Below are positions 56,663 through 64,000 of a stretch of 64,000 nucleotides of DNA, piece after piece (the stretch's first letter is position 1; each line of letters opens with the position of its first letter). Position numbers and translations under genes: made by a program. The stretch comes from Pseudomonas triclosanedens. GTDB taxonomy: Bacteria; Pseudomonadota; Gammaproteobacteria; Pseudomonadales; Pseudomonadaceae. The DNA lies in contig NZ_CP113432.1 of assembly GCF_026686735.1 (NCBI RefSeq), positions 2,407,001-2,471,000 on the forward strand, given 5' to 3'. The notes beneath the pieces are model-generated. The model did not search any database, had not been told where the DNA came from, and saw only the letters and a program-made list of their open reading frames with translations.

Positions 56663-58087
56663 TCAATGCTTGAACATGATATGCCGCGCGACGGTGTAGT
56701 CCTCCAGGCCGTACATCGACAGGTCCTTGCCGTAGCCGGACTGCTTGAAGCCGCCGTGGGGCATTTCGCTGCACAGCATGAAGTGGGTGTTCACCCAGGT
56801 GCAGCCATACTGCAGTCGCGCCGCGACCCGTGAGGCGCGGCCGACATCGCGGGTCCACACCGACGAGGCGAGCCCGTAGTCGGAGTCGTTGGCCCAGCGC
56901 ACCGCTTCGTCCGCGTCGCTGAAGGGGGTCACCGACACCACCGGGCCGAACACCTCGCGGCGGACGATCTCATCGTCCTGCTGGGCGTTGGCCACTACCG
57001 TTGGCGCGTAGAAGAAGCCCTTGCCGCTGACCGGGCTGCCGCCTGTGGCGATGCTGATGTGCGGGCTGGCCTTGGCCCGCTCGACGAAGCCGGAGACTCG
57101 GTCGCGCTGCGCCGCGGTGATCAGCGGGCCGAGCTCGGTGGCCGGGTCGTTCTGCAAACCCGTCTTGAGGCTCGATACCGCGCTGGCCAGGTCGGCCACG
57201 AAGTTGTCGTAGATCTTCTTGCCCGCATAGATGCGGCAGGCGGCGGTGCAGTCCTGGCCTGCATTGTAGAAGCCGAAGGTGCGGATACCGGCCACCACGT
57301 CCGCAAGGTCGGCATCGTCGAAAACGATCACCGGCGCCTTGCCGCCCAGCTCCATGTGCAGGCGCTTCACGCTATCGGCGGCGCTCCGGATGATCGCCTT
57401 GCCGGTTCCCACCGAACCGGTCAGCGAGACCATTCGCACCAGGTCGTGGCCGACCAGCGGTGCGCCCACGCTCGGGCCACGGCCGAACACCAGGTTGACT
57501 ACGCCGGCGGGGAACAGTTCGGCGATGAATCCGGCCACCCGCAGCGCGGTCAGCGGGGTCTGCTCCGAGGGCTTGAGCACCACGCAGTTGCCGGCGGCCA
57601 GCGCCGGGCCGAGTTTCCACGCCGCCATCATCAGCGGGTAGTTCCAGGGCGCGATGGAGGCAACCACGCCGACCGGGTCGCGGCGGATCATCGAGGTGAA
57701 ACCGGGCAGGTATTCACCGGCGGCGGAGCCGGGTAGCACACGGCAGGCGCCGGCGAAGAAGCGGAACACGTCGGCAATGGCCGGGATTTCATCGTTCAGC
57801 GCGGCGGCATAAGGCTTGCCGCAGTTGTCCGATTCCAGCCGGGCCAGTTCTTCGGCGTGTTCCTCGATGCGGTCGGCCAGGCGCAGCAGGAGCATGGCGC
57901 GATCCTTCGGCGCGGTCTGCGACCAGCCATCGAAAGCGGCGTCGGCCGCGCGCACGGCGGTGTCCACCTGGGCTTCGCTGGCTTCGGCGATCTGGCCGAT
58001 GACTTCGCCGGTGGCGGGGTTGAGGATGTCCAGTTTCTCGCCTTCGCCGTCGACGAACTGGCCGTTGATCAGGAGTTGGGTTTGCAT
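56663..58087 (-). CDS. patD: Gamma-aminobutyraldehyde dehydrogenase
   Basis: This 474-residue NAD-dependent aldehyde dehydrogenase has the catalytic Glu in [14 protein letters not shown] (about residue 247) and the catalytic Cys in [15 protein letters not shown] (about residue 281). The [14 protein letters not shown] context is characteristic of PatD/Prr-type aminobutyraldehyde dehydrogenases, which oxidise 4-aminobutanal from putrescine to GABA. Position directly after a polyamine-type ABC transporter supports this: the order is that of E. coli ydcSTUV-patD. A transaminase for putrescine is not in the window. Confidence 0.92.
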
Positions 58088-58127
58088 CGCATGTCCTCCG
58101 TGCAGGTGCGGTTGGTGGGCGCGCGGG

Positions 58128-58940
58128 TTACTTGCCGCTCCCGGCCACGTCGCTGGTGCCCCGCGTCAGGTAGTAGGCGCCGAGGATCGGCAGCATGGTG
58201 GCGAGCATCACCAGCATGGCGACCACGTTGGTCACCGGGACATCGCGCGGGCGGCTCAACTGGTTGAGCAGCCACAGCGGCAGGGTGCGTTCGTGGCCGG
58301 CGGTGAAGGTGGTGACGATGATTTCGTCGAACGACAGTGCGAATGCCAGCATGCCGCCGGCCAGCAGTGCCGTGGCGATGTTCGGCAGGATGATGTAGCG
58401 GAAGGTCTGCCAGCCGTCGGCGCCCAGGTCCATCGAGGCTTCGATCAGGCTGAACGAGGTGCGGCGCAAGCGCGCGATGACGTTGTTGTAGACGATCACT
58501 ACGCAGAAGGTCGCGTGGCCGACCACGATGGTCAGGAAGCCGGGATCGATACCCAGCGTCTTGAACGCCGAGAGCAGCGCGATGCCGGTGATGATGCCGG
58601 GCAGGGCGATGGGCAGGATCAGCATCAGCGAGATGCTTTCCTTGCCGAAGAAGTCGCGGCGGTACAGCGCGCCGGCGGCGAGGGTGCCGAGGAACATGGC
58701 GATCAGCGTGGCGATGCAGGCGATTTTCACCGACAGCCAGATGGCCTCGAGCACGTCGCTGCGCTGGGCGGCGATGCTGAACCATTTCAGGGTGAAGCCT
58801 TGCAGCGGGAAGCTGTAGGCCGACTCTTCGGTGTTGAAGGCGTAGAGCAGGATCACCAGGATAGGGAAGTGCAGGAACACCAGCCCGCCCCACGCGGCCA
58901 GGCGCAGGAACCAGGACGGGCGGTTGTCGTCAGAGCGCAT
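58128..58940 (-). CDS. Polyamine-type ABC transporter permease (PotC/YdcV-like)
   Basis: This 270-residue inner-membrane permease has six helices and the EAA loop [20 protein letters not shown] (about residues 165-184) that contacts the ATPase. The [12 protein letters not shown] segment is typical of PotC-type spermidine/putrescine permeases. It overlaps the upstream permease gene by 11 bp and precedes patD by 40 bp. With its partner it forms the membrane channel of the importer. Confidence 0.92.
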
Positions 58941-59832
58941 CGAAGGCCCCCAGCCGCTTGGCGATGGACAGGTACACGGCGATCAGCACGATGGGCACCA
59001 GGGTGAACGCCGCCGCCAGCGGCATATTGCCCACCGCGCCCTGCTGGACGTAGACCATCGTGCCGATGAACAACCCGCTGGGGCCGATCAGTTGCGGGAT
59101 GATGAAGTCGCCCAGGGTCAGGCTGAAGGTGAAGATAGAGCCGGCCACCACGCCGGGGAAGGCCAGCGGCAGGATCACCTGGAAGAAGGTCTGCCGCGGG
59201 TGCGCGCCGAGGTCGGCGGAGGCTTGCAGCAGCGAGGGTGGCAGGCGTTCCAGGGCAGCCTGGATCGGCAGGATCATGAATGGCAGCCAGACGTAGGTGA
59301 ACACCCAGAAACGCCCCAGGTGTGAGGTCGACAGGGTGTTGCCGCCCACGCCCGGCACCTCCAGCAGCAGGTCCAGCAGGCCGAGCAGGTGCAGGCGTTC
59401 GATCACCCAGTAGAGGATGCCGCCCTTGGCCAGGATCACCGTCCAGGCATACGCCTTGACGATGTAGCTGGCCCACATCGGCAGCATCACCGCGATGTAG
59501 AAGAAGGCTTTCTCCTTCGGCCCCGCGTAGCGCGCCATGTAGTAGGCGATGGGGAAGGCGAGGATGGCGCTGGCCACCGATACGGCGATGGCCATGCCGA
59601 AGGTGCGCAGGACGATATCGTAGTTGGCCGGGTTGAACAGCGCCCTGTAGTTGGCCAGGGTCAGCTCCGGCGTCACCGTCATGGTGAAGTCGTCGAAGGT
59701 GTAGAAGCTCTGCCAGAGCAGGGCGAACAGCGAGCCGATGTAGATCACCCCGAACCACAGCAACGGCGGGATCAGCAGCATCAACAGGTACAGCGTGCTG
59801 CGCCGGTAGAGGAAGCTTGAGATCGCCCTCAC
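58930..59832 (-). CDS. Polyamine-type ABC transporter permease (PotB/YdcU-like)
   Basis: This 300-residue permease has six helices and the EAA loop [20 protein letters not shown]. The [17 protein letters not shown] segment is typical of PotB-type subunits. I chose GTG 59832, which overlaps the ATPase stop codon (GTGA) and has GGAGGAG eight bases before it; a longer upstream frame lies inside the ATPase gene. It pairs with the PotC-type permease downstream. Confidence 0.9.
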
Positions 59833-60848
59833 GCTGCCGGCTCCTCCAGAAGCGGCACCAGCGCGCTGCGTGCCCAGCAAGCCGTAACCGCATCGCCCGG
59901 CCTGGGGCGCTGCTCCTCCCGCTCGCCGTTGGGCAGTGCCGCAACCAGCCTTACGCCGTTCTCCAGTTCGATCTCGTAGCGGCTGCTGGCGCCCATGTAC
60001 TGCACGTCGAACAGCGTGCCGCTGACTTCCAGCTCTCCCTCTCCGGCATGGCCGAAGCGCACGTGCTCGGGGCGCAGCGAGTGCGGGCGGGCCTCGCCGA
60101 GCAGGCGCTGGGCGAGGTCGCCACGCAGCACGTTGGCGGTGCCGACGAACTCGGCGACGAAGCGCGTGGCGGGCTTCATGTAGAGGTTGCGCGGGGTATC
60201 GACCTGCTCGATGCGCCCCTTGTTGAACACCGCCACGCGGTCGGACATGGATAGCGCTTCGCCCTGGTCATGGGTGACGAAGATGAAGGTGATGCCCAAC
60301 TGCCGCTGCAGTTTCTTCAGTTCCACCTGCATCTGCTCGCGCAGTTTCAGGTCCAGCGCGCCGAGGGGTTCGTCCAGCAGCAGAACGCGAGGGCGATTCA
60401 CCAAGGCGCGGGCCAGTGCCACGCGCTGGCGCTGGCCGCCGGAGAGCTGCGCCGGCTTGCGCTTGCCGTAGCCGGTGAGGGCGACCATGCCGAGGGCTTC
60501 TTCGGCGCGGTGATAGCGTTCGCTCCTGGCGACGCCTTTCACCTTCAGCCCGTAGGCCACGTTGTCCAGCACGTTCATGTGGGGGAACAGCGCGTAGTCC
60601 TGAAACACGGTGTTCACGTCGCGCTCGTAGGGCGGCAGCCCGCCGGCTTCGTGGCCGTGGATGCGGATAGAACCCGAGGTTGGCTGTTCGAAACCGGCGA
60701 TCAGGCGCAGGCAGGTGGTCTTGCCCGAGCCGGATGGGCCGAGCATGGAGAAGAACTCGCCGTCACGGATCTCGATGGACACTCGGTCGACGGCGCGCAC
60801 GTCGCCGTAGTGGCGGCTCACCTCGGTGAACTGGACGGCTGTGGTCAT
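59829..60848 (-). CDS. Polyamine-type ABC transporter ATPase (PotA/YdcT-like)
   Basis: This 339-residue ABC ATPase has Walker A GPSGSGKTT (about residues 37-45), Q-loop VFQDYALFPHMNV, signature LSGGQRQRVALARAL (about residues 136-150), Walker B LLLDEPLGALD and H-loop FVTHDQGEAL. A C-terminal TOBE domain (about residues 260-335), common to polyamine and sugar importers, follows. It energises import. The upstream binding-protein gene is separated by 157 bp that contain a strong hairpin, which suggests the binding protein is made in excess. Confidence 0.95.
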   Translation of the reverse strand: MTTAVQFTEVSRHYGDVRAVDRVSIEIRDGEFFSMLGPSGSGKTTCLRLIAGFEQPTSGSIRIHGHEAGGLPPYERDVNTVFQDYALFPHMNVLDNVAYGLKVKGVARSERYHRAEEALGMVALTGYGKRKPAQLSGGQRQRVALARALVNRPRVLLLDEPLGALDLKLREQMQVELKKLQRQLGITFIFVTHDQGEALSMSDRVAVFNKGRIEQVDTPRNLYMKPATRFVAEFVGTANVLRGDLAQRLLGEARPHSLRPEHVRFGHAGEGELEVSGTLFDVQYMGASSRYEIELENGVRLVAALPNGEREEQRPRPGDAVTACWARSALVPLLEEPAA

Positions 60849-60952
60849 GCTGCTGGCTACCTGCGTGGCGGGGCCGCATCAGAAAAGGTAGCGCATGGGG
60901 GCGGTGGCGCCTGGTGCGCGTCCACGGCGCGCCGTTGAATCCATCGGCGTCG

Positions 60953-60983
60953 TGCGCAGGAGCACGGTGCTGGCTCCTGCGCA
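60953..60983. other. Intercistronic hairpin after the binding-protein gene
   Basis: Perfect 11-bp stem (TGCGCAGGAGC at 60953-60963, GCTCCTGCGCA at 60973-60983) with a nine-base loop, in the gap between the solute-binding-protein and ATPase genes. No T tract. Such structures often protect the binding-protein mRNA and lower downstream expression. Confidence 0.65.
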
Positions 60984-61005
60984 GGCGGCTGGCACGGATG
61001 TCGCG

Positions 61006-62163
61006 TCAGCGTCCGCCCATGATCGCGATGTAGTCCTGCGTCCATCGGCTGTAGGGCACGCACTGTCCCTGGTCGCACTTGGCCTGCGGGGTTTTCCAGA
61101 AGGCGATGCGGTCGAACTGGTCATAGCCGTTGGTGGCGCAGCCCTGGGGGCCGAGCAACTGGCTGCCGCTGCAGCCGGCGGGCGAGGCGGGGACCGAGCC
61201 GAACCAGGCGGCGACGTCGCCCTGGACCTTGGGTTCCAGCGACCAGTTCAGCCACTTGTAGGCGCAGGTCGGGTGCTTGGCGTCGACGTGCATCATGGTG
61301 GTGTCGGCCCAGCCGGTAACGCCTTCCACCGGGATGGTCGATTCGATCGGCTGCTTCTCGCCGAGCAGCGCGTTGACCTGGTAGGGCCACGAGCCGGAGG
61401 CGGCCACGCCTTCGTTCTTGAAGTCGCTCATCTGCACCGTCGCATCATGCCAGTAGCGGTGGATCAGCCTCTGCTGCTCGCGCAGCAGCTTCAGCGTGGC
61501 GGCGTACTGTTCCTCGTTGAGCTCGTAGGGGTCCTGGATGCCCAGCGCGGGCTGGGTGGTCTTCAGGTACAGCGCGGCGTCGGCGATGTAGATCGGCCCG
61601 TCGTAGGCCTGTACGCGGCCCTTGTTGCTCTTGCCGTCGGGAAGTTTCTGCTCGGTGAACACCACGCTCCAACTGAGCGGAGCCTTGGGGAATACCTTGG
61701 TGTTGTACATCAGCACGTTCGGCCCCCACTGGTACGGCGTGCCGTAGTGCGCGCCGTCCACCGTGTGCCACGGCGCGTCCTGCAAGCGCTTGTCGACGTT
61801 CTTCCAGTTGGGGATCAGCGAGACGTTGATCGGCTGCACGCGCTTGCCGTAGACCAGCCGCAGCGAGGCGTCGCCGGAGGCGGTGACCAGATCGTAGCCG
61901 CCCTTGGCCATGAGGCTGACCATTTCGTCCGAGGTGGCGGCGGTCTTCACGTTGACCTTGCACCCGGTGTCCTTCTCGAACTGGGTCACCCAGTCGTAAT
62001 TCTTGTCGCTTTCGCCGCGTTCGATGTAGCCGGGCCAGGCGATGATATCGAGGGCGCCTTCGGGTTGGCCCAGTTGCTTGAGCGCCTCGGCGGCCTGGAG
62101 AGAGGCGCTGCATAGCAGGCTGACGCTGGCGAAGGCCAGCGCCGCGAATTTCATTGATGACAT
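61006..62163 (-). CDS. Polyamine-type periplasmic solute-binding protein (YdcS-like)
   Basis: This 385-residue protein has a signal peptide (MSSMKFAALAFASVSLLCS, cleavage near LQAAE) and the family 1 spermidine/putrescine-binding fold: DIIAWPGYIERGESD near the start, YDLVTASGDASLRLVYG, and PYQWGPNVLMYN in the ligand cleft. The C terminus has the extra Cys-rich part typical of YdcS-type proteins (GCSGSQL, GCATNGYDQF, CDQGQCVPY). It captures the substrate for the importer. GGAG precedes ATG 62163. First gene of the operon, divergent from the ATP-grasp gene. Confidence 0.93.
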   Translation of the reverse strand: MSSMKFAALAFASVSLLCSASLQAAEALKQLGQPEGALDIIAWPGYIERGESDKNYDWVTQFEKDTGCKVNVKTAATSDEMVSLMAKGGYDLVTASGDASLRLVYGKRVQPINVSLIPNWKNVDKRLQDAPWHTVDGAHYGTPYQWGPNVLMYNTKVFPKAPLSWSVVFTEQKLPDGKSNKGRVQAYDGPIYIADAALYLKTTQPALGIQDPYELNEEQYAATLKLLREQQRLIHRYWHDATVQMSDFKNEGVAASGSWPYQVNALLGEKQPIESTIPVEGVTGWADTTMMHVDAKHPTCAYKWLNWSLEPKVQGDVAAWFGSVPASPAGCSGSQLLGPQGCATNGYDQFDRIAFWKTPQAKCDQGQCVPYSRWTQDYIAIMGGR

Positions 62164-62362
62164 GGGACGACTCCTGTTGTTCTAGGTTCTTGGAGCCTCT
62201 GCGGCCGAACCGCGCCGAAAGTTGGCACCCAGTTGACAGCAGCGCGCCCAACTCCGAAGGGCACGCTCTTGCAGCGTAGTTCTGGCCCCAGTGGCTGACA
62301 AGAACGCCTCCCGGCGCCTTACGGCCCCAAACGGGGCGTGCTGCGGGAGCGAGCCTTGCGTT

Positions 62363-62381
62363 GCGCACCAATCGGGTGCGC
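62363..62381. promoter_or_regulatory. NtrC-type enhancer site
   Basis: Perfect 7-bp inverted repeat GCGCACC-N5-GGTGCGC, which contains the GCACC-N5-GGTGC core of the NtrC consensus (TGCACC-N5-GGTGCA). Its centre is about 86 bp upstream of the start site predicted for the adjacent sigma-54 promoter, a typical enhancer distance. Confidence 0.7.
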
Positions 62382-62431
62382 GGTCTTTCGTGGCGTATCG
62401 CAAGCCATTGAAAAATGAGGGAACAGGCCCC

Positions 62432-62446
62432 TGGCACGGGGCTTGC
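62432..62446 (+). promoter_or_regulatory. Sigma-54 (RpoN) promoter of the ATP-grasp gene
   Basis: TGGCACG-N4-TTGC matches the sigma-54 -24/-12 consensus at every core position, with GG and GC ten bases apart. Transcription should start near 62458, about 32 bases before ATG 62490. Confidence 0.8.
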
Positions 62447-62489
62447 CACGACTTCTTTGCCGAGCACGAGCGGCCGCAAGGAGTTCAGG

Positions 62490-63899
62490 ATGGCACGGGT
62501 TTTCTATGATGAGATGCACGACGCCACCGGCGTCTGCCGACCCCATTACAGCGGCTTTGCCCGCTGGCTGGCGGACATGCCCGCGGAGCAGTTGCAACAG
62601 CGCCGCCGAGAGGCCGACCTGCTGTTCTACCGCGCAGGCATCACCTTTACCCTGTACGGCGATGATCAGGGCACCGAGCGCCTGATTCCCTTCGACACCA
62701 TCCCGCGCAGCATTCCCGCCAGCGAGTGGAAGATCATCGAGGCCGGGTGCATCCAGCGGGTGCAGGCGCTCAACCTGTTCCTCGCCGATCTCTACCACGA
62801 CCAGCTCATCCTCAAGGAAGGCCTGATCCCGCCCGAGCAGGTGCTGGCCAACGACCAGTACCAACTGGCGATGCAGGGGCTGGACGTGCCCGGCAATGTC
62901 TACGCGCATATCGCCGGCGTCGACCTGGTGCGAGATGGCAACGGCGCGTACTACGTGCTGGAGGACAACCTGCGAACCCCCAGCGGCGTCTCCTACATGC
63001 TGGAGAACCGCAAGATGATGATGCGCCTGTTCCCCGAGCTGTTCGGCGGCCAGCGCGTGGCGCCCATCGATCACTATCCGAACCTGCTGCTCGACACTCT
63101 GCGCCAGGCCAGCGAGGTGGAGCAGCCCAACGTCGTGGTGCTCACGCCGGGGCGCTTCAACAGCGCGTACTTCGAGCACGCCTTCCTGGCCCGCGAGATG
63201 GGCGTGGAGCTGGTGGAGGGCGCCGACCTGTTCGTCCGCGACGAGCGCGTCTACATGCGCACCACCGCCGGGCCGCAGCAGGTCGATGTGATCTATCGGC
63301 GGATCGACGACGACTTCCTCGACCCGCTGGCCTTCAACCCCGACTCCATGCTCGGTGTGCCCGGCCTGCTGGCGGCATACCGCGCCGGCAGCGTGGTGCT
63401 GGCCAATGCCATCGGCACCGGCGTGGCCGATGACAAGTCGGTGTATCCCTATGTGCCGGAAATGATCCGCTTCTACCTGGACGAGGAGCCCATCCTGCAC
63501 AACGTGCCGACCTGGCAGTGCCGCCGGCCGCAGGACCTGTCCCATGTACTGGCGCACCTGCCGGAACTGGTGGTCAAGGAAGCCCAGGGCTCCGGCGGTT
63601 ACGGCATGCTGGTGGGGCCGGCGGCGACCACCGCGGAGATCGAGGCCTTTCGCGCCCGCCTGATCGCGCGGCCGGAAGCCTACATCGCGCAGCCGACCCT
63701 GAGCCTGTCCACCTGCCCGATCTTCGTCGACAGCGGCATCGCCCCGCGTCATATCGACCTGCGCCCCTTTGTGCTGTCCGCGCCGGAGAACACCCGCCTC
63801 GTGCCGGGCGGGCTGACACGTGTGGCGCTGCGCGAAGGTTCGCTGGTCGTGAACTCGTCCCAGGGCGGCGGCACCAAGGACACCTGGGTAGTGGAGTAA
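62490..63899 (+). CDS. Circularly permuted ATP-grasp protein (DUF404/DUF407 type)
   Basis: This 469-residue protein belongs to the circularly permuted ATP-grasp family. Key parts are [19 protein letters not shown] (about residues 156-174, metal and ATP binding), PNVVVLTPG with [24 protein letters not shown] and, near the end, [13 protein letters not shown] and HIDLRPFVL. Such enzymes are proposed amide or peptide ligases found in operons with alpha-E and transglutaminase-like proteins; no reaction is established. AAGGAG precedes ATG 62490. An NtrC site and sigma-54 promoter lie directly upstream. Confidence 0.93.
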
Positions 63900-63967
63900 G
63901 CGATGCGCCCTCACCGTCACCCGCTGCGCCCCGAAAGACGCAAGGCAAGGAGGAGAAGGAGGTTGCG

Positions 63968-64000
63968 ATGAATGCCGATGAAACAGGGGTTTTGCCAGCT
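63968..64000 (+). CDS. Start of next gene in the ATP-grasp operon (truncated by window)
   Basis: ATG 63968 is preceded by a GGAGAAGGAGG stretch and opens a frame running to the window end (first residues MNADETGVLPA). It lies 68 bp after the ATP-grasp stop on the same strand. In this family the next gene is often an alpha-E-domain protein or a transglutaminase-like protein, but eleven residues do not allow an assignment. Confidence 0.5.
   Translation, partial: MNADETGVLPA

Follow-up and report, generated by a model that had tools for sequence, protein, structure and literature searches.

A predicted NtrC-activated, sigma-54-dependent promoter ahead of a CP-ATP-grasp, alpha-E, transglutaminase and Anbu operon in Pseudomonas triclosanedens

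The region at 62363-62489 of the window, a 64,000-nucleotide stretch of Pseudomonas triclosanedens DNA, lies directly ahead of an ATP-grasp gene and carries a series of promoter-like sites. The first is an NtrC-type dyad, GCGCACC-AATCG-GGTGCGC (62363-62381, plus strand), which is read directly from the sequence and whose core is kept across the Pseudomonadaceae. The second is a sigma-54 -24/-12 element, TGGCACGGGGCTTGCC (62432-62447, plus strand), which has 11 of 12 consensus letters, with its GG and GC ten bases apart. The GCACC of the dyad begins at 62365 and the TGG of the element at 62432, a spacing of 67 bp. An earlier note on this DNA had placed GCGCACC-N5-GGTGCGC at 62363-62381 and TGGCACG-N4-TTGC at 62432-62446 ahead of the ATP-grasp ATG; on re-reading, the coordinates of the dyad proved exact and the position of the element was confirmed. 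Between the two lies a putative IHF site that the note did not contain, TTTCAATGGCTTG (62401-62413, minus strand), which matches eight of the nine fixed letters of WATCAANNNNTTR. Transcription is predicted to start at 62458 on the plus strand, 12 bases past the GC of the -12 element, ahead of a ribosome-binding site, AAGGAG (62478-62483, plus strand), around which CAAGGAGT is invariant in an alignment of the window with 20 upstream regions from the genus. An Rfam search of 60000-64000 returned just two matches, far below the gathering scores.

The ATP-grasp gene (62490-63899, plus strand, 469 aa) is the first of its operon, and its ATG at 62490 lies 43 bases 3' of the sigma-54 element. Its product matches CP_ATPgrasp_2 (PF14403, E 1e-167), in agreement with the earlier description of the gene as a circularly permuted ATP-grasp. 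The operon has the order ATP-grasp, alpha-E, transglutaminase, Anbu, with the last three genes just past the window (locus L002), where profile matches identify alpha-E (PF04168, E 2e-91) and transglutaminase (PF08379, PF01841). The proteasome-family protein scores 23.7 bits against PF00227 (cut-off 22.4) and matches solved Anbu chains (5lox at E 5.5e-100, and also 5nyw, 5loy, 5nyj and 5nyf). Its translation contains the residues T1, D17 and K32, which correspond to the catalytic Thr1, Asp17 and Lys32(33) given for Anbu in the abstract of PMC6376114. Structural work has been done on Anbu and its operon, and the relevant sections of these studies describe substrate and role as not known (PMC5666114, PMC6376114, PMC8665760). 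In passages of PMC6376114, the ATP-grasp protein is reported to release phosphate, and peptidase activity of Anbu was not seen.

The ATP-grasp and alpha-E genes are separated by a 57-codon ORF that has a strong ribosome-binding site; its first part occupies 63968-64000 of the window (plus strand), and it runs past the window end, spanning 169-342 in locus L002. A relative sits at the same place in genomes G023 and G007, each time with an internal stop, and in G022 and G013 the ATP-grasp and alpha-E genes are directly joined without it. Its residues 11-46 resemble scattered stretches of other genomes, and it has a weak match, below cut-off, to the Mu Gp11 C-terminal domain. A sister cluster (L105-L110) with 843-aa frames of about 42% identity has no -24/-12 element of at least 11/12 letters in its six 4.4-kb loci. 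On the far side of the promoter, and divergent from it, the window contains a ydcSTUV-patD-type polyamine/GABA operon (56663-62163). YdcS scores above cut-off for NF041888, and the dehydrogenase scores above cut-off for PRK13473 (the aminobutyraldehyde dehydrogenase subfamily) and below it for TIGR03374.

Conservation was assessed in 146 upstream regions (the window, 20 from the genus, 94 from further members of the family and 31 from named Pseudomonas loci), with gene starts placed by coordinate; 142 of these are distinct over 200 bp. The set includes genes other than close orthologs, namely seven g5 matches out of 19 listed (identity 53-54%) together with 11 second-type copies (about 80% identity), all of which have no element at -25 to -75. 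Among the matches listed at an identity of at least 79%, G045, G058, G060, G071 and the second G103 copy were left out. A sigma-54 element of at least 9/12 letters is found at -25 to -75 in 115 of the 142 distinct upstream regions and is lacking there in 27, and 91 of the 115 have a dyad of at least 8/10 letters at exactly 67 bp; owing to kinship among the sequences, and to named and unnamed loci that may share species, these counts do not represent independent events. Dyad scores at 67 bp were 10 in 28 sequences, 9 in 55, 8 in 8 and lower in 24, and the runner-up distance, 96 bp, accounted for 5/115. With the dyad allowed at any distance in 109 sequences, other spacers reached at most 4 (N3), 13 (N4), 4 (N6) and 27 (N7), and N5 reached 86. 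The dyad and the -24/-12 element, whose conservation the earlier note had proposed to check, are both kept in orthologous regions at fixed spacing.

Mean information per base follows the outline of these sites. It is 1.12 in each half-site of the dyad, 0.31 in the N5 centre, 0.25 in the gap between the dyad and the IHF-like block, 0.74 in that block and 1.63 in the sigma-54 element. The half-sites are conserved, the centre and flanks are variable and most scores are 9 or 10, which indicates that the window's perfect dyad represents one version of a putative NtrC site that is conserved but often imperfect. The consensus GCACC-N5-GGTGC, which we take to be that of an NtrC site, agrees with glnA of the same genome. 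Enteric glnA typically has tandem NtrC sites, although these are not required, whereas one conserved NtrC-type site is seen at the ATP-grasp promoter: between -110 and the dyad there is no conserved block that could represent a second one (mean information 0.34, a measure that registers conserved sites only).

The spacer between dyad and promoter contains the conserved block CAAnnnnTTGAA. An IHF-like match of at least 8/9 letters on the minus strand occurs within the 52-bp spacer in 91 of 115 sequences, compared with a mean of 5 and a maximum of 11 in mononucleotide shuffles, which ignore the relatedness of the sequences; in 77 of the 115 spacers it stands at a single common position. The nine letters compared are the fixed ones of the IHF consensus WATCAANNNNTTR, and IHF is the obvious candidate for the protein that would bind here.

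The genome encodes both NtrC (TIGR01818, above cut-off, at 5722290-5723660) and RpoN (one TIGR02395 match above cut-off). Its glnA promoter (L137, G000:C1:5715299-5715401) shares the GCACC-N5-GGTGC core and TGGCACG-N4-TTGC with the ATP-grasp promoter, but its dyad and element are 88 bp apart rather than 67 bp and it has extra dyad-like sites upstream. A dyad core also precedes a second glutamine-synthetase-type gene (L139), with no element of at least 10/12 letters in the fetched stretch. At L138, the longest histidine-kinase frame, which lies just ahead of ntrC at 5722290, has a core near its beginning, ahead of the PAS domain (residue 144 onward); the true ntrB start is taken to lie downstream of this dyad. 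Several cores among 20 fetched stretches lie inside long frames, so not every genomic dyad core looks regulatory.

Similar arrangements occur outside the family, in a set of 49 named loci from other gamma- and beta-proteobacteria. A -24/-12 element of at least 10/12 letters lies within 200 bp in 30 of these (shuffles: mean 0.66, maximum 3; opposite strand: 0/49), and a dyad of at least 9/10 letters lies within 150 bp in 21 of the 35 loci that have an element of at least 9/12 (shuffles: mean 0.65, maximum 5). Other dyad spacers gave 0 to 2, and the distance from dyad to element varies. No element of at least 9/12 was found within 200 bp in 14 of the 49. Ten of these are Oxalobacteraceae (L041, L043, L051, L055, L059, L063, L066, L068, L069 and L076), and the rest are Kushneria and three Burkholderiales MAGs. 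The placing in Oxalobacteraceae is our assumption from the genus names (Undibacterium twice, Duganella, Rugamonas, Pseudoduganella, Noviherbaspirillum, Glaciimonas, Collimonas, Massilia and Janthinobacterium). Alpha-E, transglutaminase and Anbu are still downstream in eight of these ten loci.

Some Pseudomonas genomes carry a second ATP-grasp/alpha-E copy (L027-L031, L234-L236, L247-L249). A sigma-54-like GGCACA-N5-TTGC lies 190-210 bp ahead of its ATP-grasp start. The stretch of some 190 bases that follows is a strongly conserved leader, which may contain hairpins or an 8-codon leader ORF. An alignment of 11 leaders has a mean column identity of 78%, flanks included, and the leader occurs in 6 of 198 family genomes, always ahead of the second copy. 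Its predicted structure is unproven: both partners differed in one of 39 pairs, the covariation term was +0.17, and a search with one locus gave no real Rfam match. Dyads of at least 9/10 letters lie farther upstream in 4 of 10 second copies (shuffles: mean 0.27, maximum 2), so NtrC control of the second copy is possible. Other copies, which start with MSRxFFNEMY (L004, L010, L026, L201, L204, L233), have no element at -25 to -75, as is also the case for L005, which does not start in this way. Anbu adjoins the element-less copies L004, L010 and L204, and an Anbu operon without the NtrC/sigma-54 promoter therefore also exists.

From the arrangement and conservation of its sites, the region at 62363-62489 is very probably an NtrC-activated, sigma-54-dependent promoter of the CP-ATP-grasp, alpha-E, transglutaminase and Anbu operon. 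In keeping with established knowledge of NtrC, NtrB would phosphorylate NtrC when nitrogen is short, and phosphorylated NtrC would bind the predicted dyad site, whose centre lies some 86 bp before the predicted start. Bending of the DNA at the IHF-like site would carry it to RNA polymerase with sigma-54 at the -24/-12 element, where the ATPase of NtrC would then open the promoter, as it is established to do. The enzymes produced would most likely form amide bonds, given an ATP-grasp ligase and a transglutaminase fold, and would modify or salvage peptides during nitrogen starvation. Anbu, which is missing in many Pseudomonas, would act as an accessory hydrolase.

COG3484 is presumably Anbu. This group is among the predicted sigma-54 targets in the part of PMC12316311 that treats them. 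Excerpts of PMC5666114 and PMC6376114 cite Hervas 2008 for induction of Anbu in nitrogen-limited P. putida. The KT2440 genes PP_2688-PP_2685 include, as described in print, genes for a CP ATP-grasp of type 2, a transglutaminase and a proteasome beta-like protein, and they are induced under nitrogen limitation in the relevant sections of PMC8050072 and PMC7801951. The expression data given in PMC8050072 comprise log2 values of 3.99 for PP_2688 and 4.44 for PP_2685 with nitrate versus ammonium, and a 3.7-fold response of the PP_2688 promoter fragment to nitrogen depletion, with the fragment upstream of PP_2685 constitutive. The values listed for PP_2685, PP_2686 and PP_2687 (PP2685-PP2687 there) in the first value column of a table in PMC3325844 are 11.1, 6.6 and 7.1, and this column is taken, going by its footnote, to compare nitrogen with carbon limitation. 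In Burkholderia cenocepacia H111, loss of ntrC strongly reduces a transglutaminase-type cluster, I35_5080-83, which is common to the NtrC and sigma-54 lists in the corresponding passages of PMC5491218; it contains a large transglutaminase-domain protein, and its likeness to the Anbu operon is one of description. Passages from the main text of an RNA-seq study on ntrBC in P. aeruginosa contain no mention of transglutaminase, proteasome or ATP-grasp (PMC7214821). A literature search found no paper containing Anbu and NtrC as whole words, and the promoter may already be reported.

The proposal in the earlier note that the system is made in nitrogen starvation agrees with these P. putida responses, with the fixed spacing of the conserved sites and with the core shared with glnA. 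Its wording, "made only when nitrogen is scarce", overstates the case: excerpts of PMC5666114 describe moderate constitutive expression, unchanged under various conditions, and those of PMC7801951 report induction in an rpoN mutant. In the latter data set, PP_2686, PP_2687 and PP_2688 rise 12.61-, 11.04- and 14.66-fold in the wild type, 37.31, 16.57 and 32.8 in a relA/spoT strain and 14.16, 16.02 and 19.61 in the rpoN mutant, and PP_2685 stands at 1.12, 4.81 and 1.45 in the same order; the putative regulator of PP_2686-2688 is given as NtrB/NtrC (PMC7801951). Set against the NtrC/sigma-54 reading are the near-flat wild-type value of PP_2685 and the constitutive fragment upstream of it, the single conserved NtrC-type site, the 24 family regions with the element but no 8/10 dyad at 67 bp, the 27 regions and 14 outside loci in which the element was not found, and the varying dyad distance outside the family. 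The strongest objection to a simple reading is the induction of PP_2688 in the rpoN mutant. It is suspected to stem from the strain or its growth phase, because urtA behaves alike in that data set (11.12 and 12.7, same excerpts), but a second promoter may also account for it. The promoter described here could accordingly work as one of several, with another giving substantial expression that does not depend on nitrogen or RpoN; this is unlikely on balance but deserves serious weight, as both the constitutive expression and the rpoN result favor it, while a simple, crude scan of 62100-62560 found no sigma-70-like site.

It is improbable that the -24/-12 element is real but is worked by another enhancer-binding protein that owns the dyad. 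The genome has 106 matches to NtrC-like domains, receiver-only ones included, and among fetched loci the element is kept without a dyad of 8/10 letters at 66-68 bp in 4/4 from genus g17 and 8/8 from g6, the latter having a 7/10 dyad at 65 bp in seven distinct sequences and in a named L018-type sequence. The core of the dyad is nevertheless the same as that before glnA, and the published induction, in the passages cited above, comes from nitrogen limitation. The activator in g17 may differ from NtrC. The g17 loci (L193, L195, L202, L218) carry TGGCATGAGCTTTGCG at -47 in 4/4; none of them has a good dyad around 67 bp, and searches of their genomes gave no Anbu match.

Also improbable is a dyad that serves the divergent ydcSTUV-patD operon, whose ydcS starts at 62163, instead of or besides the ATP-grasp operon. 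The two operons share the intergenic region, and YdcS and aminobutyraldehyde dehydrogenase are polyamine/GABA functions; however, the best minus-strand -24/-12 candidate has 9/12 letters and overlaps the plus-strand element, and a tblastn search of the flanks fetched for the 80 named relatives (up to 5 kb) turned up no ydcS relative. A shared promoter for the divergent operon was rejected for want of a good minus-strand element.

Taken singly, the sites are not rare. The 19-bp dyad with at most one mismatch occurs once in the 64-kb window versus 0.14 expected, and TGGCACG-N4-TTGC with at most one mismatch occurs five times versus 2.9 expected, so the -24/-12 element alone is weak evidence. The genome has 8 exact copies of it (3 of a control pattern) and 45 places with the dyad core GCACC-N5-GGTGC (control 5), so a lone dyad is not unusual either. 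That GC-rich DNA should have matched these short consensus patterns by chance is nonetheless hardly credible, since a dyad followed after 38-68 bp by TGGC-N7-TTGC occurs once in the 6.25-Mb genome, a single contig (control 0), and both sites are conserved at fixed spacing across orthologous upstream regions. This conservation takes away most of the remaining doubt over chance.

The promoter of the ATP-grasp operon is also kept where Anbu is missing. In a family subset of 115 loci, with the window included and named loci excluded, 80 have the element and a dyad of 8/10 letters at 66-68 bp, 17 have the element only and 18 have no element (7 g5 loci at 53-54% identity, 6 second-type copies, 2 g10 loci and 3 others). 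Among the 80 full-promoter loci, 48 are in genomes with Anbu, 31 are in genomes without it by whole-genome search (E 0.001), and the remaining one is in G052, where Anbu lies next to a different, element-less copy. A cytochrome c gene sits after Anbu in the genome of the window, and in 18 of the 31 named Pseudomonas loci such a gene lies within about 360 bp of transglutaminase, with Anbu not found; cytochrome c directly after transglutaminase reads as loss of Anbu. Anbu is present in the fetched flanks of 41 of the 49 outside loci, so its presence looks ancestral.

Anbu is thus gone from operons whose NtrC, IHF-like and sigma-54 spacing is kept, which points to the core as the nitrogen-controlled part. 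There is about an even chance that the nitrogen-starvation device is the ligase/alpha-E/transglutaminase core, with Anbu as a dispensable partner. The passages of the main Anbu papers that concern its loss and distribution do not mention promoter retention after Anbu loss, and the word fluorescens is absent from these papers. The picture is mostly known, as the nitrogen response has been described in P. putida; the new elements are the conserved promoter footprint and the retention of the promoter in Anbu-less operons. The promoter in Pseudomonadaceae, alongside like arrangements in Burkholderiales and enterobacteria, makes nitrogen starvation the condition in which to study this system, and the Anbu-less operons show which part of it deserves the first test. 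If the core is indeed the device, the search for function would shift from protein degradation to amide-bond formation.
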